Shown here one piece after another: positions 9,725 through 60,883 of a stretch of DNA of 64,000 nucleotides. The DNA is from Balneolia bacterium (GTDB lineage: Bacteria > Bacteroidota > Rhodothermia > Balneolales > Cyclonatronaceae). Numbering within the stretch: the stretch's first letter is position 1; every line of letters starts with the position of its first letter. The translations under genes and the position numbers were made by a program. The notes below the pieces were generated by a model. It had not been told where the DNA came from. It did not search any database and saw nothing but the letters and a program-made list of their open reading frames with translations. The stretch is taken from NCBI GenBank assembly GCA_022565795.1, contig JAIUMA010000005.1, positions 1 to 64,000 on the forward strand, written 5' to 3'.

Positions 9725-9757
9725 AACTGATTGGGGATGATATCCCGGCCTTGTTCT

Positions 9758-9842
9758 TTTCACGCAAAGTTCGCAGAGGTCTTATGAATTTCTGTAAAAT
9801 CCTTCGCGGGCTTTGCGTATCCTTGGCGCTCTTCGCGTGAAA
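9758..9842. repeat. Imperfect-hairpin intergenic repeat (CGCAAAG/CTTTGCG type)
   Basis: Ends TTTCACGC and GCGTGAAA are inverted repeats, with inner CGCAAAG / CTTTGCG and CGCAGAGG-like words. It belongs to the same loose family as the GGACGCAGA elements at 43302-43432 and 46337-46574. It sits downstream of the propeller array. Confidence 0.6.
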
Positions 9843-9920
9843 CCCTTCAGTTTTCTAACATACCCCTGAGCCCCAATCACGGCTCTTATCACCCTAATAC
9901 AACACGCCTTTTCAATTTAC

Positions 9921-12346: not shown

Positions 12347-12484
12347 CCAATCTGCGTGAATCCGTGCCTGCCTGCCTGCTTCAGGCAACCTACAAGGAAA
12401 TCATCAAAAGTACGGCGTTAATGATTTACCCGAACTATTACCAATCTGCGCAACTCTGCAACATAATCCGCGCGACTCTGCGTC
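12347..12484. repeat. Degenerate TCTGCGTCC-family element
   Basis: Words CCAATCTGCGTGAATCCGTG, CCAATCTGCGCAACTCTGC and a final GACTCTGCGTCC match the right half of the elements at 43302-43432 and 46337-46574. A CCTGCCTGCCTGC stretch interrupts it near 12366. Confidence 0.5.
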
Positions 12485-12510
12485 CTTCCCTCCTCCCTAC
12501 ATATTCGTAA

Positions 12511-12652: not shown

Positions 12653-15238
12653 ATGAAAGCATTATATACTACCCCTCATTTTATACATTCCATTACAAAT
12701 TTCAGTACTATTTCGTATTTCCTTCTCAGCCTGCTCCTCATCACCCTAACCGCTTCAGTTTCCATGGCGCAGGTGGTACCTATTGGCCAGGCCAGCTACA
12801 GCACTACCCCACCTCCGGGTCAGCAGGGCCCGAGCCTGTCGAACGGTCAACCGGCTACGCCTCTGCTTTCCGATGCCTTCGACCAGCGGGTACAGAGCAG
12901 CAATTTCTGGAGCAGTATCAAATATCCGTTTTTTGGTGATAACCATTCGGCCCCACTTTACGCGCATCCGTTAGCCATGAAGGCTGAGGCAAACGGACTT
13001 CAGCTGGGCTATACCGCCGAGGCGGTCGTAAGCGGCCGGGCGTATAACTTTCCACGTGCCAATCATCTCACTGTAGGTATTGAAGGGCTGAATACATCAG
13101 AAACCACTACCCGACACTATGGCGACTGGACGGTAACCGCCGAATGGCAGGGCAACGGGAGGGAAATGCACGCTACGCTCGGTCACGGCCTTCCGTTTGT
13201 TTATTTTGAAATTAATGGCGGTGATGCGTTAATCACGGCAAACCAGACACATTCGGTCTGGCACGAGGATGGTGAAGTGCTGGGCGTTACCGTTGGAGGC
13301 GAGCATTACGGCATCTTTGCGCCAACCGGCTCGGAATGGAACGTAAGCGGCTCTCAATTCGCTTCCTCGCTTAACGGCGAAACCTTCCTTTCAGTAGCGA
13401 TTTTGCCAAACAATGATCCCGAAACGCTCGAAATGTTCCGCGAGCGCGCCTATGCCTTTGTAACCGATACCTTCGTGGAGTGGCAGTATGATGAAAGCGG
13501 ATCCATGCTCAACAGCACCTACACCATAGAAACTACCCTGCGCGATGATGCCGAGGGAAATCTGAATGAAACCCTTACCGCACTTTACAGGCATCAGTGG
13601 CTAATCGTAAATGAGCCGCTTACTGGATATTCCTACAACTCACCGCGTGGCGAAATGAAGCTGATGGCCGGTAACACGTTCAATACTTCACGCCAGTTTT
13701 CAGGAATTCTGCCGTCCATGCCGGATGCAGGCGATTATGACCGCTCGCAGCTGCTTTCATACGTTCAGCAGGCGGCGGCAGGGAATCTGGGCCCTGGTCC
13801 TACCTACCAAAACGGTAAGGACATGGCGCGTTTTGCCCATCTCATACATATCGCAGACCAGCTTGGAGAGCCGGCCGAAAGTGCCAAAAACCAGCTGATG
13901 ACCAAGCTGAAAAACCGACTGGAAACATGGTTTACAGCTGGCGGAGGTCAGGAGTATGTGCATGATGACGTATGGGATGTATTTACCGGCTACCCATCCG
14001 ATCACGGCGCCGCCACTCAGATTAACGATCACCATTTTCATCACGCTTATGCCATAATGAGTGCGGCTACCATCGCCCGCTTCGACCCGGAATGGGCGGA
14101 GCAGGATAACTGGGGCGGCATCGTAAATATGCTTGTCCGTGATGCCAACGGCTGGGACCGCGAAGACGAGATGTTCCCGTTTCTGCGCTCGTTCGACGTA
14201 TATGCGGGCCACTCCTGGGCGGCAGGACACGGCGCTTTTGCAGAAGGCAACAATCAGGAGTCGAGCTCCGAAGCCATGAACTTTGCTTCTGCAGCAGTTC
14301 TCTGGGGCGAAATAACCGGTCAGCCGGAAATCCGCGATCTCGGAATCTATCTGTACACCACCGAAGCATCAGCCATCGATCAGTACTGGTTTGATGTGGA
14401 TGAAGAGGTTTTCCCACCCGCCTACACCTACAACGCTTTGGGCATCGTATGGGGCAACAATGGTAATCACACAACATGGTTTGGTCAAAATCCGGCCTTC
14501 ATTCATGGCATTAACATTCTGCCTGTGCATACGGGATCATTTTATCTGGCCCGGCATCCGGACTATATCATGCTGAACTACAATGCAGCTGTGGATGCCA
14601 GCGGTGGCGAGCTATCCACCTGGCGGGATATTTTCTGGAAGTACATCGCCATGGCCGACGGTGAGCTGGCGCTAAGCAAGCTCGAGGCTGAGCCAAACTA
14701 CAACCGTTTCGACGGCAACTCCCGCGCCCACACCATGCACTGGATTCACAATCAGAAAAGGCTGGGGCAGGTCGATTTTTCCGTTACGGCCGATATAGCA
14801 ACCTACTCGGTATTCAGGAATGATGACAACGAGCGCAGCTATGTAGCCTATAACGCCGGCAATGCGTCCAGAATGGTAAGCTTCTCTGATGGCTTTTCGA
14901 TGGAGGTTGCCCCGGGTGAACTCAAAACTGAATTGGCCGGCGAGCCTGTCGGAATTGTGGATCCGGAAGTGCCAAACGAAGTGGCCTTAGATCAGAACTA
15001 CCCGAACCCGTTCAATCCGGCAACGCAAATCAGCTTTACCCTGCCGGAAGCTATGGATGTAACGCTTGAGGTCTACAACGTAACCGGTCAGCGCGTGGCC
15101 ACGCTTGTGAGCGGTCAACAAAGTGCGGGTCAGCATACCGCAACATTCGACGCCAGCCGCCTTTCCAGCGGGGTCTACCTTTACCGCCTGAGAGCGGGCA
15201 GCTTTGTAGAAACCAGAAAAATGATGCTCGTGAAATAA
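12653..15238 (+). CDS. Secreted GH81 endo-beta-1,3-glucanase with sorting domain
   Basis: Predicted laminarin/callose-degrading endo-1,3-beta-glucanase of 861 residues. The start at 12653 (M-K-A-L-Y) gives a signal peptide ending S-M-A-Q; earlier ATGs add a non-signal head. The GH81 core shows [13 protein letters not shown] (family H-F-H-Y-G-Y), [19 protein letters not shown], and [12 protein letters not shown], which carries the catalytic-region glutamates, then V-L-W-G. The last 80 residues are a sorting domain (Q-N-Y-P-N-P-F-N-P to M-M-L-V-K). The enzyme likely acts on algal or fungal beta-1,3-glucan outside the cell. A terminator follows. Confidence 0.93.
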
Positions 15239-22371: not shown

Positions 22372-22413
22372 GGACGCAAAGTTGACAAAGGTTGACAAGA
22401 GTTGCGCAAAGGG
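22372..22413. repeat. GGACGCAAAG-type repeat fragment
   Basis: GGACGCAAAG, two GTTGACAA words and GTTGCGCAAAGGG follow the cassette closely. The first and last words match the left half of the GGACGCAGA family. Confidence 0.45.
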
Positions 22414-23353: not shown

Positions 23354-23373
23354 GAGGCGCAAAGACGCAGAGG
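23354..23373. repeat. GGCGCAAAGACGCAGAGG repeat fragment
   Basis: Short member of the GCAAAG/GCAGAGG family downstream of the M23 gene. CTTTGTGCCATCGTGCCTTAGTGG-like words at about 23437-23460 follow. Confidence 0.45.
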
Positions 23374-23535
23374 TTTAAGATTAAGTTTGTCTGTAATCTT
23401 AAATATCAAATAAATATATATTTAGACTCTCTATTCTTTGTGCCATCGTGCCTTAGTGGTTCACTAATTATTCCACTTCCGCACCCAAATATCCCGCCAG
23501 ATAGGCAGGATAAACCGAAGCCGTTCGCCTTTTGG

Positions 23536-27248: not shown

Positions 27249-29687
27249 ATGAAGTCAACTATCTACATATTTAAGACGCTCACCACGATTTTGGCGCTAA
27301 TGTTCATTTTCTCAGGAGGCCTTTCAGCACAAACTTTCGGAGAATGGGAACTGGTAAATCCGGATTACTACCCCGAACATATGCGTTCAGTAAGTTTTGC
27401 AGATAATGATAACGTTTGGGCAGTCGGAGACAACAGTCTGCTTTTGCATTCTCCTGATGGCGGATTTAGCTGGAGTTTTCAAGGCACCGGCTTGAAAACA
27501 GATTTTACTGATATCCATTTTGTTGACTCACAAAATGCCTGGATTGTGGGTGATGATGGATTAATTCTCCATTCAAATAACGGAGGCGCCCAGTGGTCAA
27601 TTCAAAATAGCGGTACCGACAGAGATCTTAGGGGTGTATTTTTTTTAGATGAAAATACCGGCTGGGCGGTAGGACGTACTTCAACTATTTTGAAAACTTC
27701 TGATGGCGGGATAAACTGGGAGCAGCAAAACGCATCATCCAGTGGCTCAACGTTTGACAATGTTCAGTTCCTGAATGAAAATTTTGGAATGGTTGTAGGG
27801 TCAAAAGGCACGCAGCAGCAGGTTTATATTATGACCACAGACGGTGGCGAAACCTGGGAAGAATCTATATTTGGCTCCCCAAACGTATTTTATGACCTGC
27901 ACATCTTCGATGAAGATAACACCATCATCTCTGCCAGAAATGGCCGAACGTTCAGAACTTCAGATGGCGGTGAAAACTGGACATGGAGTACCGTCGCCAG
28001 CACCTCATCAAGCATGCGTAGCATACGTTTTATTGATGAAAATAAAGGCTGGATTGTAGGAACAATTGATGCAGATGGAAACACCCCGGTTTTATTTACT
28101 GAAGACGCAGGCATCAGCTGGACAAATATAAGCGGTGAGAGCAGAGGCAACTACTACTCTGTTGATGCAATTAATGATGGCCATTTTGTGGGAGTCGGAT
28201 TATCAGGATTGATTTCCACCACCACAGATAATGGTACTACCGTTCAAAATCTGCCCGAAGAGCCACGACGTGATCTGTTTAGCATAGCGTTTACAGACGC
28301 TGATAACGGATGGATTAGCGGGACCGGTGGTACGCTTCTCAATACCACAAACGGTGGCGAAAGCTGGGAAGTGGTAAAAAGTACCGATCAGGATCGGTTT
28401 GGCGATATCTTTTTCCAGGATACTATGAGTGGGTGGATTGCCGGTTCAAACGGACAGATCAGGAAAACAACGGATGGTGGCGAAAACTGGGAGGTAATAG
28501 AAACTGAAGCTTCGGCTAACGTGCTTTCAATAACTTTTTTAGATTCCTCTAACGGATGGGCCGTTGGTTCTTCTGGCTCGGTACTAAAAACAGAAGACGC
28601 TGGTGAAAGCTGGACATTGGTTGACGTTGGGGTAACCAGCCCTTTATATAGCGTGGAATTTATAGATGAAAATACAGGATTTATAGCAGGCGGCGGATTT
28701 ACATCCGGAATAATTTTAAAAACTACAGATTCCGGAGAAACATGGGAAGAGGTTCGCACTCTGAACCGTGCCATTTTTGATCTGCATTTTATTGATGATT
28801 CTGTAGGCTGGGCCGTGGCCGGGGGAGGTATCATTCTAAAAACTGAAAACGGTGGTTCAGATTGGTTTGGAATACCAAATAACGCATCCGAAACGCTGAA
28901 CTCTGTTTTTTTCGCCGACCCGGATAACGGCTGGGCGGTTGGCTCAGACGGCGAAACGGCCTACACCACTGACGGCGGTGCCACATGGGAAGCACTGGAT
29001 GGGGCAAATGGCGTTACGCTAAGGGATGTTTACGTTGATGCTTCTAATCGTGTATGGACAGTAGGAAATAATGGCTTGATTATGAAATTTAATCAAACCG
29101 ATGCACCTGCTGCGGTTGGCCTGCTGTTTCCGGCAAATCAATCTGTAGATGTACCCGTTGACACTCAATTTATTTGGGGAGCTTCGTTTGGGTCATCTTC
29201 GTATGAGTTTCAGATAGCAACGGACCAGAGCTTTTCTTCTATAGTTATTGATGAACCAGAGCTTTCAACAACCTCAATTGCGCTTCAAGAAGATCTAAGT
29301 TCGGAAGAAACGTATTACTGGAGGGTGAAAGCCAGTTCTTTCGGCGTAGCGTCGGAATGGTCTGATGTCTATATGTTTACTACGGAATTTGCCACCTCCA
29401 TTCAGGATGGTGCTAATGTGCCGCATGAATTTTCGCTTTCACCAAGCTATCCGAACCCTTTCAACCCAACCACGCAGATTCGTTATGGGCTGGCGGATGC
29501 ATCTCACGTAACGCTGGAGGTCTACAATATGATTGGTCAGCGTGTGGCAACGCTGGTAAATGAACAACAAACAGCCGGATATCATACCGTTAGTTTTGAT
29601 GGGTCCAGACTATCTAGCGGAGTGTACATCTACCGGATTTTGGCCGGCAACTTTACGGCAACAAGAAAGATGACACTGGTTAAGTAA
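27249..29687 (+). CDS. Secreted YCF48/BNR-type propeller protein with sorting domain
   Basis: A large 812-residue secreted protein. After a signal peptide ending S-A-Q come about twelve repeats of the YCF48 (photosystem II assembly factor-like, sialidase-like BNR) type, each with (N/T)-G-W-x-V-G-x-x-G, then x-I-L-x-T-x-D-G-G-x-x-W. These fill residues 30-610 and should form one or two propellers. A fibronectin-like segment (about 620-720, with Y-Y-W-R-V-K-A) and a C-terminal sorting domain (Y-P-N-P-F-N-P to M-T-L-V-K) follow. No catalytic motif is seen; surface adhesion or binding is likely. A terminator ends the unit. Confidence 0.9.
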   Translation: MKSTIYIFKTLTTILALMFIFSGGLSAQTFGEWELVNPDYYPEHMRSVSFADNDNVWAVGDNSLLLHSPDGGFSWSFQGTGLKTDFTDIHFVDSQNAWIVGDDGLILHSNNGGAQWSIQNSGTDRDLRGVFFLDENTGWAVGRTSTILKTSDGGINWEQQNASSSGSTFDNVQFLNENFGMVVGSKGTQQQVYIMTTDGGETWEESIFGSPNVFYDLHIFDEDNTIISARNGRTFRTSDGGENWTWSTVASTSSSMRSIRFIDENKGWIVGTIDADGNTPVLFTEDAGISWTNISGESRGNYYSVDAINDGHFVGVGLSGLISTTTDNGTTVQNLPEEPRRDLFSIAFTDADNGWISGTGGTLLNTTNGGESWEVVKSTDQDRFGDIFFQDTMSGWIAGSNGQIRKTTDGGENWEVIETEASANVLSITFLDSSNGWAVGSSGSVLKTEDAGESWTLVDVGVTSPLYSVEFIDENTGFIAGGGFTSGIILKTTDSGETWEEVRTLNRAIFDLHFIDDSVGWAVAGGGIILKTENGGSDWFGIPNNASETLNSVFFADPDNGWAVGSDGETAYTTDGGATWEALDGANGVTLRDVYVDASNRVWTVGNNGLIMKFNQTDAPAAVGLLFPANQSVDVPVDTQFIWGASFGSSSYEFQIATDQSFSSIVIDEPELSTTSIALQEDLSSEETYYWRVKASSFGVASEWSDVYMFTTEFATSIQDGANVPHEFSLSPSYPNPFNPTTQIRYGLADASHVTLEVYNMIGQRVATLVNEQQTAGYHTVSFDGSRLSSGVYIYRILAGNFTATRKMTLVK

Positions 29688-43301: not shown

Positions 43302-43432
43302 GGACGCAAAGATGCGCAGATTTTAAAAAGAAAGGCGCGCAAAATATGGTGACACCCTTTTTGCGTAACTCCCGACGCCCGCCTGACGGGGCCGGGACAA
43401 GTTCCACGGCATAATCCCCCTAATCTGCGTCC
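43302..43432. repeat. GGACGCAGA-family hairpin element, copy 1
   Basis: Starts GGACGCAAAGATGCGCAGAT, contains AAAAAGAAAGGCGCGCAAA and ends CTAATCTGCGTCC, so the ends are inverted repeats. Matches the copies at 46337-46469 and 46478-46574. Its right end overlaps the last codons of the ATPase gene. Confidence 0.75.
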
Positions 43433-44646
43433 TTTAAACCCCGGCTGAAATACTCGTGGCAGCTTACAACTTCCGCCACTTTCCCATCCCGCTCAAAGCG
43501 GTCGGCTTGGTTCAGGGTGATGATGTGGCCTTTGGGTATATCAAAAAACGCGAGCGCTTCAAACAGTCCGTTTAATTCCCGTTCAAGGTTATCGGGCGTG
43601 AGTTCGTAGCAGGCCTGTATGATTTCGGCAGGCTCTCCATTTTGGAAAGCAATGAAATCGCACTCACCCTTTTCCGAAAAGTAGTTGATCTCCTTATATC
43701 GTCTCCTCAAAAACAGATAAATCAGATTTTCAAACAGCGGACCATAGTCTGAGGTAAACGATTTCGAATTCACGCTTACCAGACCGGTATCGATGCTATA
43801 TACCTTCCGCGGATTGATCAGCTGCTTGCGAACCGAATAGCTGAATTTTGGAACAAACTGGAATAACCAGGACTGCTCAAGGTGTGAAAAATACTCCATC
43901 ACCGTGCTGGTAGCGCTGATTCCGATAAGGGATTTAATCCGGTTGGCGGTCACCAGTTTGCCAACATTGGATACGAGATACAGGGCGAGGCGCTGCAGCG
44001 ACTTTGTGTCCCGCACTCCATAACGAACGGCAATATCCCGGATCAGGATATCTTCAAAAAGCTGATGCAGAATATCGTTGTTACCGGTTTTCACATACTC
44101 GGGAAATCCACCCGTCTTCATGTATGCGGTTAGCGCTTTGAGTGATGCATCCTTTTTCACAAACCGGAGATATTCCGGCCACGAAAATGGGAACAGCTCC
44201 TTGGTGATGTGCCTGCCCGTCAGCTTAGTTCCCAATTCCTGACTCAGCAAAGAGGCGTTGGAGCCGGTTATCACCACTTTATACTCCTCATCCAGCTTTT
44301 GGCGGACGTACGTTTCCCAGCCCTTTACGATCTGTATTTCATCAAAAAAAAGAACCTTACTGCCCGATTCGTTTATGTTTTCGTCTATTCGGGTGAAGTC
44401 ATTCAGCTGGAATTCATACAGCCGGGGATCTTCAAAATTCAGATAAAACGCTTCTTTATATCTGCTGGCCAAAAGCTGATACAGCAGCGTACTCTTCCCG
44501 CACCGGCGGATTCCGGATATAATCAGGGCATGAGACGACAGGTCCGGAATACTGCGCAGCATCTCCCGCTCCAGACCCGTTTTCCGCTGGAGTAGATTTT
44601 CCTTCTGTGAGCCTGCAACTTCTGTGATGGTGGATTTTAGTATCAT
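43420..44646 (-). CDS. AAA ATPase with DUF4143 domain
   Basis: A 408-residue ATP-binding protein. N-terminal AAA_14 part: G-I-R-R-C-G-K-S-T Walker A, V-L-F-F-D-E-I-Q Walker B, I-T-G-S-N-A-S sensor. The C-terminal DUF4143 nuclease-like fold has N-L-I-Y-L-F-L-R-R-R-Y and E-C-D-F-I-A. Role of this family is uncertain; many occur in mobile or stress-response settings. Start at 44646 matches M-I-L-K-S-T; the upstream frame adds residues from the operator region. The last three codons (D-A-D) lie inside a dispersed repeat. Upstream has several TTTGAT palindromes. Confidence 0.88.
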   Translation of the reverse strand: MILKSTITEVAGSQKENLLQRKTGLEREMLRSIPDLSSHALIISGIRRCGKSTLLYQLLASRYKEAFYLNFEDPRLYEFQLNDFTRIDENINESGSKVLFFDEIQIVKGWETYVRQKLDEEYKVVITGSNASLLSQELGTKLTGRHITKELFPFSWPEYLRFVKKDASLKALTAYMKTGGFPEYVKTGNNDILHQLFEDILIRDIAVRYGVRDTKSLQRLALYLVSNVGKLVTANRIKSLIGISATSTVMEYFSHLEQSWLFQFVPKFSYSVRKQLINPRKVYSIDTGLVSVNSKSFTSDYGPLFENLIYLFLRRRYKEINYFSEKGECDFIAFQNGEPAEIIQACYELTPDNLERELNGLFEALAFFDIPKGHIITLNQADRFERDGKVAEVVSCHEYFSRGLKDAD

Positions 44647-44656
44647 AACAAAATTA

Positions 44657-44718
44657 TTTGATAGTAAAATACACTTTTGATGAGTAGCATCAAACACTAT
44701 TGTTTGTTAGTATCAAAC
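44657..44718. promoter_or_regulatory. Four-site TTTGAT/ATCAAA array upstream of ATPase gene
   Basis: TTTGATG and CATCAAA pair perfectly over 19 bases (44675-44693). GTTTG...CAAAC form another weak pair further upstream (44702-44718). A lone TTTGATAGTA lies at 44658, and TAGCATCAAAC / TAGTATCAAAC are direct repeats 23 bases apart. This spacing just before the ATG suggests cooperative binding of a repressor, maybe the product itself. Confidence 0.5.
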
Positions 44719-44734
44719 AACTTTATATAGGCAA

Positions 44735-44771
44735 GACTCAGAGAAACACAGATCTTTAAAAAAAGGCGCGC
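44735..44771. repeat. GGACGCAGA-family half element
   Basis: ACTCAGAGAAACACAGAT, then AAAAAAAGGCGCGC, match the left half of the copy at 46478-46574 (GCAGAGAAACACAGG...AAAGGCGCGC). The right half is missing. Confidence 0.5.
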
Positions 44772-45112: not shown

Positions 45113-46306
45113 ATGAAAACAAACCCTCTACAGATTCATATGCAGAAGCAGCGTAACTGGCAAATCATACTTCTTCCGGTTGTTCTGATTCTTTTTTCCC
45201 CCTTGTATGCGACAAACCTTTCTGCACAGAGTCTGCAGAACGATAATTTTTTCCTGCATGAAAACGGGGTAACGGTGATGTGTCCCGATGCAGAAATCGG
45301 GGAAAGCGGTGAAATAAACGGCATTTTGTACACGAAGAGGACGCGTGAAGAGATTATGGCCGACCGTTCGCTTTCAGCAACTTCCTGCACCAGCGGGATC
45401 ACGAATATGAGGAGTATGTTCAATGGCCGTTCTGATTTCAATGAAGATATCAGCAGCTGGGATGTAAGCAGTGTTCCAGACTTTTTCTCCATGTTCAGGA
45501 ATGCAACTACATTTGATCAGGACATAGGCAGCTGGGATATGAGCAGCGCTGAGTCTTTGAATCAAATGTTCCTTGGTGCTGAGGTATTTAACCAAAACAT
45601 AGGGAACTGGAACGTAGGAAATGTTACTACCATGCTAAACACCTTCAATGGTGCAACTAAATTTAATCAGGATATTGGCGCCTGGGATATGAGAAATGTA
45701 AACACAACGCGCGCGATGTTTTTCGCAGCACGAGCTTTTAATCAGGATATCGGCGGTTGGGACGTTTCTGGCGTAACAACCATGTCAAATATGTTCGTAG
45801 GTGCCCATGCCTTCAATCAGGATATCGGCAGCTGGGATGTATCTGGCGTTCTTGGTATGAGCAGCATGTTTTCAGGAGCGCTCTCCTTCATTCAGGATCT
45901 TTCACTTTGGTGCGTTTCTAATATCAACAGTGAGCCGTCCAATTTTGCAAATAACAGCCCGCTTAATGAAAATGATGATTTCAAACCCGTATGGGGTACC
46001 TGTCCGACCGGAACCAGTATAGATCCAAATACTGATACTCCCTCCGTGTTTGCCCTCAATCAAAACTACCCCAACCCGTTCAACCCAACCACGCTGATCG
46101 AGTACGCCCTGCCCGAAGCGGCAGAAGTACGGCTGGAAGTATTCAATATGATGGGTCAGCGGGTGGCCACACTGGTGAGCAATCAGCAGGCCGCGGGACG
46201 GCACAGCGTCAGTTTCGACGCCGGCCGCCTGTCGAGCGGTATGTACATCTACCGCATACAGGCGGGAAGCTTCCTGCAAACCCGAAAGATGATGCTGGTG
46301 AAATAA
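45113..46306 (+). CDS. BspA-like (DUF285) surface protein with sorting domain, paralogue 2
   Basis: A 397-residue exported protein. The signal peptide ends near L-S-A-Q. Seven or so DUF285 repeats of about 25 residues (F-N-Q-D-I-G-x-W-D-V-S-x-V-x-x-M-x-x-M-F) follow from residue 100 to 290. A conserved head [12 protein letters not shown] and T-S-C-T-S-G-I-T matches the protein at 744-1772, showing duplication. The C-terminal sorting domain ends M-M-L-V-K. Role: likely adhesion; ligands not known. Confidence 0.88.
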
Positions 46307-46336: not shown

Positions 46337-46469
46337 GGACGCAGAGGAACACAGATTATGAAAAGAAAGGTGCGCGGAGGATGGAAAATCTCATTCTGCG
46401 TTACTCTATCCGACATCCGGCTGGCGGAGCCGGGATAAGTTGTGTATAAATTTGTGCGTCTCTGCGTCC
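46337..46469. repeat. GGACGCAGA-family hairpin element, copy 2
   Basis: From GGACGCAGAGGAACACAGAT through AAAAGAAAGGTGCGCGGAGG to GTCTCTGCGTCC. Terminal inverted repeat GGACGCAGA / TCTGCGTCC. It is nearly head-to-tail with copy 3, eight bases away. Confidence 0.8.
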
Positions 46470-46477
46470 CGTTTTTT

Positions 46478-46574
46478 GGACGCAGAGAAACACAGGTTAC
46501 AAAAAGAAAGGCGCGCAAAGGAAACATAAATACTTTGCGTTAATCCGCGGCATAATCTGCGCTAATCTGCGTCC
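46478..46574. repeat. GGACGCAGA-family hairpin element, copy 3
   Basis: GGACGCAGAGAAACACAGG, AAAAAGAAAGGCGCGCAAAGG, ACTTTGCGTTAATCCGCGG, then AATCTGCGCTAATCTGCGTCC cut at 46574. The most symmetric copy: GCGCAAAG pairs with CTTTGCG inside. It ends where the ABC permease gene's stop begins. Confidence 0.8.
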
Positions 46575-47881
46575 TATAACCCAGGATCTGGTATCAAATC
46601 ATATTCGTCGGAGGTGAGGAATTCCAGACGCCTGAAGCGTGGCACAAAAAAGTCGTACCATTCCTGTTGGAATGCCTTCATTTCGTGGTCCAGGGTTCGC
46701 AGGCGCTGCGCGTCGGTCCCGGCACGGCGCTCCAGCCAGGATTGCACCCACATGGGCGGAGAGAGAGGCCGAAGGCGCGATACCAGCTCAGTCTGTCGCT
46801 CCCCGGGCTCCTTAAACTTTTGTTCGGCTTCCGCCAGGCGGTTTTCCACAGCTTCATTTACCAACAGCAGCCTAAACCATACTTCATAAAAATCCGGAGC
46901 ATTCTCATTCACAAATTCTTCGGGATGATCGGTAATCCATTCGTCAAACAAGGCGTCGTTTTCCTGGTCCACCGCCTGCTCGATGGATCGCTGTTCGGTT
47001 ATCCAAAGCGCCCGTGATGGCACAGGGTGAAGGCTTGTGGCGAGCATGGAAATAAGAGAGGGAATCAGCAGGAGAAAAAGTACCCAAAAGCCCGCCAGTC
47101 CAACAGCATTTACAGCCGAGCTGGTCATGAAAAGATTAAAGAGGGCGCATAGTGCAAACCAGAATCCAATGTAGAGCAGGATAACGCCGATCAGGGCGAG
47201 GCCATCGGCATGGAGAAGGCTGATCCCAAACAGCAGGGACCACAGCAAAAGAGACAGGATTACCAGCCCGCAAAGAATCAGTAATCTGAACAGCATTTTA
47301 TAGGCCAAAATCCGGTTAATACTAACCGGCTGTGATCGCAGCAGCGCCCAGGTTCCCAGCTCCCGCTCTGCTGACAGCATATTGTAGCCCAGTACAATGA
47401 CAAAAAGCGGAATCAGCCACACCAGCACAAACGCAAAGTCGAAGATGCCCACCATCTGCATAAACGGGTTTTCGAGCGCATTATCCCTTAGCGGCTCGGT
47501 CGTGGTGAGGGTTACTCTGCCATAATTGGGAAGGATATCCAGCTGACCACCGGAGAGCGCGGCAAGTGGTTTTGGCTTCAGAAAAACGTGTTTGCCCGCG
47601 CCCTGGAACCGGCTTAAAACCAGCGGGTTGGCGGGATCCTGAAACCACCTTTTCACCTCTTTTTCACCCTGTTCTATGGCCACAAGCTCCTGCCTCTTTT
47701 CTTCGTAGAAGCTGGCCTCTGCCGCCCGCAGCGATATTATGGTATCTTCCTGCTGCTTTACCCGCTCGTTGCCGAGATACAGACTGTAGCCTATGAGCAG
47801 AGGAAGAAGCAGTAGCGTAATCCGGAACAGGCCGGATGATTTAAGGTGTCGCCATTCGAAGGAAAAAATATGATGGGTCAC
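46574..47881 (-). CDS. ABC permease, DUF3526 type (second subunit)
   Basis: A 435-residue ABC-2-like membrane subunit. One N-terminal helix, a long loop (about 45-140), then five helices from V-L-V-W-L-I-P-L-F-V-I to the region of S-A-V-N-A-V-G-L-A-G-F-W, with a coupling segment S-A-E-R-E-L-G-T-W-A-L-L-R-S-Q. The C-terminus is a coiled, charged region. GTG start at 47881 overlaps the upstream stop in GTGA. Together with the next two genes it forms an exporter of the type often found beside TonB-linked receptors in Bacteroidetes. Confidence 0.87.
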   Translation of the reverse strand: MTHHIFSFEWRHLKSSGLFRITLLLLPLLIGYSLYLGNERVKQQEDTIISLRAAEASFYEEKRQELVAIEQGEKEVKRWFQDPANPLVLSRFQGAGKHVFLKPKPLAALSGGQLDILPNYGRVTLTTTEPLRDNALENPFMQMVGIFDFAFVLVWLIPLFVIVLGYNMLSAERELGTWALLRSQPVSINRILAYKMLFRLLILCGLVILSLLLWSLLFGISLLHADGLALIGVILLYIGFWFALCALFNLFMTSSAVNAVGLAGFWVLFLLLIPSLISMLATSLHPVPSRALWITEQRSIEQAVDQENDALFDEWITDHPEEFVNENAPDFYEVWFRLLLVNEAVENRLAEAEQKFKEPGERQTELVSRLRPLSPPMWVQSWLERRAGTDAQRLRTLDHEMKAFQQEWYDFFVPRFRRLEFLTSDEYDLIPDPGL

Positions 47882-60264: not shown

Positions 60265-60426
60265 GGTAAAGAATGATGAACGTGTGCAGTTGGTGATGTT
60301 TTTGGTCTGCAGAATGATACTATTTTTCGACCAGAAACGATACCGGGCATGAGGATAAACACTAAAAAGGAAAGCTCTAAAAACACGAAAAGGTAAGTGG
60401 TTGTTGGGATGTACTCGGTGTTAATC

Positions 60427-60480
60427 ACCCAAAGCCATCAACGAATTCTCCCTCTCCTTGAGGAGAGGGCTTTAGATTTT
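60427..60480. repeat. CCTCTCCTTGAGGAGAGG repeat copy 1
   Basis: CACCCAAAGCCATCAACGAA, then TTCTCCCTCTCCTTGAGGAG, AGGGCTTTAGATTTTGC. The core palindrome could be a bidirectional terminator or a mobile repeat. Confidence 0.7.
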
Positions 60481-60611
60481 GCAATTTTATGGGCTCGGAA
60501 GATTTAGCCAATGATAGTAACGGAGCCCGCTATTTTTTTAAAAAATCAAAAACGGTGAATTTTCTGACTACACAACACCTGAAGACGAAGGCTTTACAGA
60601 CGAAAATAATC

Positions 60612-60669
60612 ACCCAAAGCCATCAGCCAATTCTCCCTCTCCTTGAGGAGAGGGGCGGGGTGAGGTGTC
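60612..60669. repeat. CCTCTCCTTGAGGAGAGG repeat copy 2
   Basis: Same left flank (CACCCAAAGCCATCAGCCAA) as copy 1; right flank GGCGGGGTGAGGTG, a known partner word in other genomes as I recall. Confidence 0.7.
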
Positions 60670-60834
60670 AGTGCTGGCTGAATTACCATGCACAGCGAAT
60701 TATTGCCCGTAACAAAAAGCTTACAAGTCGATTTTGGCACCGATTATGTTTATCTATTTTAGTAGAGATCTTGGCTTTTTTTGCCGATCCCCGTTTAAAT
60801 TTTACTGTAGTTTTGAAGAAAGACATCCAGTGTT

Positions 60835-60883
60835 CACCTCACCCAACCCTCTCCTCAAGGAGAGGGCTTTAGATTTTGCTTAA
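60835..60883. repeat. CCTCTCCTCAAGGAGAGG repeat copy 3
   Basis: Inverted left flank TCACCTCACCCAACC with core CCTCTCCTCAAGGAGAGG and right flank GCTTTAGATTTTGC like copy 1; so a composite of the two others. Confidence 0.7.

Follow-up and report, generated by a model that had tools for sequence, protein, structure and literature searches.

At positions 46337-46574 of the window analysed here (the whole stretch of 64,000 nucleotides of Balneolia bacterium DNA, assembly GCA_022565795.1, contig JAIUMA010000005.1, positions 1-64,000 of the forward strand), two copies of a hairpin-forming repeat follow each other almost without a gap. The initial annotation judged that they look like a non-autonomous dispersed family of the REP/MITE class, and recognised neither a transposase motif nor a target duplication.

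Repeat copies in the window

The family word GGACGCAGA occurs six times in the window against 0.41 occurrences expected from shuffled sequences, and none of 100 shuffles reached six. In the window copies each arm is about 42 bp long and is made of phased boxes. The features are as follows:

46337..46469 (+): whole copy 1, 133 bp, with a left arm, a spacer holding a nested second hairpin, and a right arm; single-stranded DNA fold z -2.75
46478..46574 (+): whole copy 2, 97 bp, starting 8 bp past copy 1; single-stranded DNA fold z -2.96
46533..46574 (-): right arm of copy 2, 42 bp, four boxes, holding the strict two-box word; 52.1 bits with the arm model (one of its own seed arms, hence high by construction)
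43302..43432 (+): whole copy 3, 131 bp, with a nested second hairpin; single-stranded DNA fold z -1.96
44735..44771 (+): half copy, left arm only; 73-80% identity over 30 bp to other left ends, consensus score 50
12445..12485 (-): single arm of the same hairpin-repeat family; consensus score 33, 38.3 bits with the arm model (of which it was a seed)
9756..9845 (no strand): hairpin of like boxes (CGCAAAG/CGCAGAG) with a different word, of another family; z -2.99, family score at chance level
23436..23463 (-): single arm with the word found around the GxxExxY gene of contig C40; 19.2 bits, the reversed control having no match of at least 10 bits

Alignments and folds agree with the initial reading of 46337-46469 and 46478-46574 as head-to-tail copies, separated by 8 bp, and of 43302-43432 as a third copy. 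The consensus of left and right arms was made from the window copies, so that only the scores of other places are a test; its chance level, the 99th percentile of 200 random 120-bp pieces of the window, is 23. The half copy at 44735-44771 was borne out, since it scores 50 against this level and matches the left end of each whole copy in alignments. Among the looser relatives that had been proposed, 12347-12484 is indeed related (score 33 against 23, from the single arm at 12445-12485) but is not a hairpin (12347-12486, z -0.56), and the remaining three, namely 9758-9842 (score 17), 22372-22413 (score 18) and 23354-23373 (score 18), fall below the chance level and are not retained, the hairpin at 9756-9845 having another word.

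The statement that all copies are intergenic is nearly right, except that 43302-43432 enters the ORF 43420-44697 over its last codons and stop. Indeed, this AAA_14/DUF4143 ATPase gene (43420-44697, minus strand) has its final codons and stop supplied by the repeat arm (43420-43432). The TAG stop of an ABC-2 transporter gene arises at an arm edge (46574-46576). Searched against Rfam, the window gave no RNA family above the gathering score.

Several other repeats were seen. A second small hairpin of about 35 bp, ACTTGTCCCGGC...GTCGGGA, was found by eye inside several arms of the main repeat, in the window (43385-43401 and 46423-46439) and near the first arm at loci L004, L006 and L352. It is placed as though it inserted preferentially in main-repeat arms; in the window alone it has two matches, which is within chance. 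A different repeat, with CCCTCTCC...GGAGAGGG palindromes and a TAATCACCCAAAGCCATCA lead at two places, lies at 60422-60879. Furthermore, a C-terminal coding stretch is present in four divergent copies (331-581, 14984-15238, 29433-29687 and 46052-46306), and in the ORF ending at 46306 it corresponds to a Por_Secre_tail sorting domain.

Distribution in the genome and anatomy of the arms

The recurrence outside the window on which the initial reading depended was found genome-wide: GGACGCAGA occurs at 84 sites of the 3.59-Mb genome (145 contigs) against 26 for the reversed word, and BLAST with the 97-bp copy 46478-46574 gave 25 matches, including itself. The arm consensus obtained from loci of this genome is about 42 bp long, GGACGCAGATTNGCGCAGATTATACCGCGGATTAACGCAAAG, with four boxes spaced by about 11 bp. 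Many sites have one good arm only and others have an inverted pair, the best of which (C19:13255-13350) folds as single-stranded DNA with -31.5 kcal/mol and z -10.4. The arm model was seeded with 24 arms of this genome, including the right arm of the contig C45 locus described below, 46533-46574 and 12445-12485, and the bits of these seeds are inflated. Scanned over 178 kb of distinct sequence from the genome, much of it chosen for holding the family word and part of it used in building the model, it gave 44 matches of at least 20 bits, the reversed control having none at 10 bits.

The family is mostly extragenic, as expected of the non-autonomous dispersed repeat first described: only 6 of 40 distinct arms (at least 25 bits) lie mostly inside an ORF, although ORFs of at least 120 aa cover 74% of those loci. 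The absence of a target duplication was likewise upheld, as none was detected in 12 hairpins of this genome (mean match of 1.00 nt, compared with 1.11 in mismatched flanks).

At gene-less sites, a left arm pairs no better with its own downstream DNA (5/69) than with that of other sites (60/544), these sites including some chance words or singlets. Gene-less arms are therefore at best paired box arrays rather than strictly kept hairpins, and strict hairpin covariation was looked for in gene-less copies and was absent. In the arms of orthologous elements, compared by eye, box spacing is kept and box letters change independently, which favours box arrays over exact stems.

The strict two-box word occurs eight times in this genome and in none of the 246 other genomes of the phylum sample, three of which belong to the same genus. 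A looser word is present in G247, a genome of the same genus outside the phylum sample, which has 25 BLAST matches to the arms of the C45 locus, all at arm positions.

GxxExxY genes between inverted arms

Three GxxExxY genes (TIGR04256; Pfam PDDEXK_3) are encoded in the genome, with scores of 135.6-151.4 bits against a curated cut-off of 35. All three are flanked by inverted arms, each pair having its own word: (i) the gene on contig C45 lies between arms of the window repeat family (inverted-flank score 48), (ii) the gene on contig C40 lies between CCACAAAG-type arms (score 27) and (iii) the gene on contig C95 lies between GAATTAGGAT-type arms (score 35). The C45 right arm is matched by the window copy 46478-46574 with 95% identity over 39 bp (BLAST), and the arm model gives 31.6 bits for the C45 left arm, which was not a seed, and 50.8 bits for the right arm, which was. 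When the C45 locus was used as a BLAST query, 35 matches were obtained in the genome, including itself, the rest falling within its arm regions. Stray arms with the other two words are also present in the 178 kb, namely two with the C40 word (one of them at 23436-23463 in the window) and one with the C95 word, against none in the reversed control. The partner of the window repeats is a gene located outside the window, and thus beyond the reach of the initial annotation, which encodes a GxxExxY PD-(D/E)XK nuclease and whose arms belong to the same family.

The GxxExxY protein is 125-130 aa long. In an alignment of 60 sequences, from which L200, L203 and L254 were left out on account of a stop inside the translated match, residues D72, E82, K84, Q96 and Y100 are invariant (D72, E82-x-K84, Q96-xxx-Y100), and no cysteine is. 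The D...ExK...QxxxY signature marks the RecB clade of PD-(D/E)XK nucleases. An AlphaFold model of the member from Gracilimonas amylolytica (pLDDT 94.1, pTM 0.87) had no Foldseek match at E <=0.001, the best matches being SSO0001 (4ic1, E 0.015), which we take to be a Cas4, and lambda-exonuclease-like proteins. VIA-align likewise ranked 4ic1 first (Z 10.0, 98 residues, 3.1 A), followed by restriction-type folds (Z about 8) and a Holliday-junction resolvase (Z 7.3), and these lower matches may reflect only a common arrangement. The modelled structure shows GxxExxY with a Cas4/RecB-like PD-(D/E)XK nuclease fold that carries the invariant signature.

An identification of GxxExxY as Cas4 or as a PADLOC system was rejected, as the matches are weak. 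Spread on plasmids was also set aside, with 8 positive records among 72,556 in the plasmid search. The open literature holds almost nothing on GxxExxY, PF13366, PDDEXK_3 or TIGR04256 (most subscription journals and bioRxiv lie outside that search); a reverse-transcriptase classification paper names GxxExxY. In the same literature, from which subscription journals are mostly absent, no paper joins PDDEXK_3 with inverted repeats or with the box words, and a combined query for dispersed repeats in Bacteroidetes gave no match.

Association across genomes and phyla

Inverted flanks were scored by aligning the 300 bp upstream of a gene with the reverse-complemented downstream sequence, with a threshold score of at least 26. 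In the phylum sample, matching inverted flanks were found for 60 of 96 GxxExxY genes (mostly the best-scoring matches, not a random draw); the figure was 11 of 112 for other ORFs at those loci and 47 of 572 when flanks were mismatched. A second, named set spans several phyla and consists of the best 80 of 578 loci, mostly Bacteroidota and ranked by similarity rather than drawn at random. Here 58 of 79 genes passed, compared with 16 of 298 ORFs used as controls and 65 of 388 pairs of mismatched flanks. Genes with too short a flank were dropped (3/82 in the named set, 0/96 in the phylum set); one locus is common to both sets (L070 = L182), and there are orthologs among the loci.

Among the loci that pass are records titled Planctomycetota, Dolichospermum, Alpha-, Beta- and Gammaproteobacteria, Opitutae, Ignavibacteria and Neomarinimicrobiota, as well as a single short contig binned as Methanosarcinales. 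The remaining 21 of 79 and 36 of 96 GxxExxY genes are below the threshold, among them, in the named set, loci of Acidobacteria, Desulfobacteraceae, Trichlorobacter and Leptolyngbyaceae. The flanks of GxxExxY genes show an excess of self-matches at lag 10 (0.309, against 0.255 in a distant control). A loose regular expression for the boxes matched on both sides in the right orientation at 46 of 96 genes, compared with 13 of 96 for the wrong orientation; as it misses other words, the inverted-arm alignment was used in its place.

The number of boxes also follows the gene. GxxExxY is present in 122 of the 247 genomes of the phylum sample, in which the two-box pattern ACCRCARAGNNCRCARAG has 530 sites against 3 for the reversed pattern. 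These sites occur in 68 of 122 GxxExxY-positive genomes and in 6 of the 125 that are negative, and 520 of the 530 lie in positive genomes. The odds ratio is 25, but as the genomes are not independent the P value makes this look more certain than it is.

Each gene has its own word

Among 72 GxxExxY genes from 21 genomes (a 73rd was dropped for too little flank), the two arms of a gene match each other in 58 cases. When arms are compared between separate GxxExxY genes within one genome, 11 of 232 comparisons match; protein identity among these paralogs reaches 67% at most.

Arms and protein diverge together. In a set of 110 loci, selected because they have arms, the similarity of the arms correlates with protein identity over all pairs (Spearman 0.36), over pairs below 60% identity (0.315, reached in 0/1000 permutations) and over pairs below 50% identity (0.17, reached in 4/1000). 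With GC difference and background 4-mers controlled, the coefficients are 0.307 (below 60%) and 0.18 (below 50%), each reached in 0/500 permutations, and when arms were shuffled within genomes (82 pairs) the observed 0.195 was reached once in 2000. Two cases were examined by eye: the ortholog of the C40 element in G247 encodes a protein with 49% identity and has another word in both arms, and G247 proteins with 49-53% identity to the C95 protein have AATCC-type arms, as at C95.

Presence, absence and selection

The C45-type element is a discrete unit of presence and absence. Indeed, in three genomes of the same genus (G022, G108 and G119) both flanking genes are present at the C45 locus, separated by a short spacer of unrelated sequence that lacks the element, and G248 has the orthologous element with a gene that lacks its middle part; the empty-site spacers are too diverged for the junctions to be read, and the difference could reflect either gain or loss. 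G247, a 93%-complete assembly, has the arm family, but a search of it gave no gene closely related to that of C45.

GxxExxY elements persist as orthologs between species, and the gene is under purifying selection, as dN/dS is 0.02-0.11 in 11 of the 12 pairs of orthologs, with dS reaching 1.72, and the twelfth pair is saturated. Comparisons of 20-kb syntenic regions within one genus, in which indels of 45-2500 bp were listed, revealed no site from which a GxxExxY element was cleanly missing; a single gene-less hairpin site differed, which was of the four-helix type and at which the absence of the hairpin could be due to deletion. No transposition event was caught in the orthologous comparisons.

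A GxxExxY ortholog of G159 is a mosaic (L077, L080 and L082): about the first 70% is nearly identical between two species, and, in comparison with two orthologs, the 3' part of the gene and the right arm have been replaced, as if by gene conversion between element copies.

A parallel class with S23 four-helix-bundle genes

Similar arms surround a second gene family. TIGR02436 (S23 four-helix bundle) is encoded in 153 of 198 phylum genomes, with up to 16 matches per genome; the search gave no match in the genome studied here, nor in its control genomes. Outside rRNA (L148-L177), S23 genes often lie between inverted arms with short words such as AGTGATT and TTAGCTA. The inverted-flank threshold was passed by 16 of 30 S23 loci, against 0 of 16 control ORFs (a small set) and 18 of 235 mismatched pairs, and by 15 of 30 when slightly shorter flanks were taken. 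Self-matches in these flanks are at lags 7, 8 and 14 and not at 10, that is, with a 7-8-bp period. The four-helix family is no nuclease and yet has analogous arms, which implies that a nuclease may not be required by the architecture.

At L268-L272 (near L269:5760-6020), an orthologous intergenic hairpin of the four-helix type has different arm words according to the species. It stays inverted-complementary despite the change of word, and one species has a short remnant.

Comparison with known systems

Assignment to REP in the strict sense was not supported, as the genome has no Y1/RAYT match and the arm consensus has no GTAG. A search with PF01797 (Y1) gave no match in this genome and matches in 5 of 14 control genomes, and a RAYT or IS200 origin was rejected on the absence of a Y1 transposase match. 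In PMC8049555 and PMC3116915, REPIN-RAYT systems are described as dispersed extragenic repeats in inverted doublets and singlets, more numerous in genomes that have the gene; each repeat word goes with one copy of a RAYT gene, which is conserved across species and has the repeat on its flanks. The window family likewise consists of dispersed extragenic repeats in inverted doublets and singlets, and GxxExxY has one copy per word, persists from species to species and lies between arms of that word, with a repeat load that follows the gene. However, the GxxExxY enzyme is a PD-(D/E)XK nuclease whereas RAYT is a Y1 HUH transposase, and the arms are phased-box arrays of about 42 bp whereas REPs are palindromes of 20-40 bp with GTAG.

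Taken feature by feature, a hairpin-forming inverted pair is present (46478-46574 and C19:13255-13350), though singlets are common; a single-copy, vertically kept, repeat-flanked gene is present but is of another family; and a GTAG-ended palindrome is missing, the three single arms that were folded not being simple palindromes. As for MITE features, terminal inverted repeats of the dispersed family are common to a full element of the same genome (the C45 GxxExxY element), and target-site duplication is absent in the 12 hairpins. The window family resembles REPIN-RAYT but is no member of it, because it has another enzyme family and another design of arm. BrickBuilt is a MITE of Porphyromonas.

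CGTC-tagged palindromic repeats, reported also from Bacteroidetes, 'apparently lack a dedicated transposase' and have stems of 8-9 bp with loops of 4-5 nt (PMC3733652). They share with the window family a small size, a dispersed distribution and the lack of a known mover, but the three folded single arms have no such stem-loop and the arm consists of four direct boxes.

Some 23S rRNA intervening sequences contain an S23 ORF; in PMC4990558 they are called selfish, with terminal inverted repeats and an unclear origin. The likeness lies in a small ORF between terminal inverted repeats and in the free-standing S23 ORFs, about half of 30 loci, that sit in inverted phased arms. The differences are the protein family, the period (7-8 bp for S23, about 10 bp for GxxExxY) and the location, since intervening sequences occupy 23S rRNA helices 9, 25 or 45 whereas the window copies adjoin protein genes. 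As to the Cas4/RecB clade, GxxExxY shares its fold and D...ExK...QxxxY signature but differs in its length, in the lack of an invariant cysteine and in being tied to arms.

Interpretation

Gene and arms are associated, each gene has its own word, arms and protein diverge together, box load is tied to the gene, and the element is present or absent at an orthologous site. The window repeats are probably gene-less and half copies of a GxxExxY element, and the protein is proposed to recognise and move these arms-only copies. The full element would consist of a left arm, the GxxExxY nuclease gene and a right arm, the arms being inverted and each composed of about four boxes of about 7 bp at a spacing of about one turn of the DNA helix. 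The protein would recognise the arms around its own gene by their box word, and would cut or nick at paired arms or at an extruded hairpin; this cutting could lead to arms-only elements being copied or moved into intergenic sites at a low rate, while the gene would stay single-copy per word and be retained by selection. GxxExxY would thus be to its arms, in logic, what RAYT is to REPINs, with an unrelated enzyme. Binding, cutting and transposition by GxxExxY, and the direction of spread, are what we infer.

Several results weigh against mobilisation by GxxExxY: gene-less copies do not pair preferentially with their own partner, no transposition was caught, no target duplication is present, some GxxExxY genes have no detectable arms, G247 has the arm family with no close relative of the C45 gene found, the S23 class does without a nuclease, and 6 of 125 GxxExxY-negative genomes carry boxes. 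Part of this would fit a protein that is a passenger in the loop, the arrays being spread by a host process (template switching or gene conversion) or by another enzyme, and the protein perhaps binding the boxes for its own regulation only. Four-helix genes in like arms (16/30 loci, against 0/16 ORFs and 18/235 mismatched pairs), the G159 mosaic, which is what gene conversion would give, and the missing target duplication all point that way; a mere passenger nevertheless seems unlikely given the concentration of boxes in GxxExxY-positive genomes (68/122 against 6/125), a word for each gene that co-varies with the protein, an invariant nuclease signature and purifying selection.

Selection on the gene, together with the phasing of the boxes (lag-10 excess), the weak Cas4 matches and the Cas4-like fold, would also suit boxes that serve as operators or structural sites for a Cas4-like anti-invader nuclease or a host-serving regulator, with immobile arms-only copies that form a regulon or guide the nuclease. 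This appears improbable, because the word changes within the genus (eight strict sites in this genome and none in three of the same genus, though G247 has a looser form) and the element is a discrete presence/absence unit. A classical REP/REPIN or a MITE of a RAYT, IS200/IS605 or DDE transposase can hardly account for the family: its size, its position outside genes, the inverted pairing of arms and the occurrence of singlets resemble those of REPINs (PMC8049555 and PMC3116915), but the transposase search, made for the Y1 family, gave no match in the genome, the consensus has no GTAG, there is no target duplication, and the flanked gene is a PD-(D/E)XK nuclease.

Mobilisation by GxxExxY being retained as the preferred reading, a wider one has about an even chance of being right. 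It supposes one kind of element in several phyla (and in one archaeal-binned short contig), in which a GxxExxY or S23 gene lies inside inverted, helically phased box arrays; protein and word would co-evolve into separate codes, a single genome would keep several non-overlapping repeat populations, each with its own selected single-copy enzyme, and 23S intervening sequences would be four-helix members that landed in rRNA.

For GxxExxY, a family that is widespread yet scarcely covered in the open literature, these results supply the box word as a partner, together with a substrate that can be tested. They suggest that REPIN-like systems exist with a kept single-copy enzyme unrelated to RAYT. Co-divergence of word and enzyme would make recognition specificity predictable from sequence, and the S23 four-helix parallel makes the origin of 23S rRNA intervening sequences testable.
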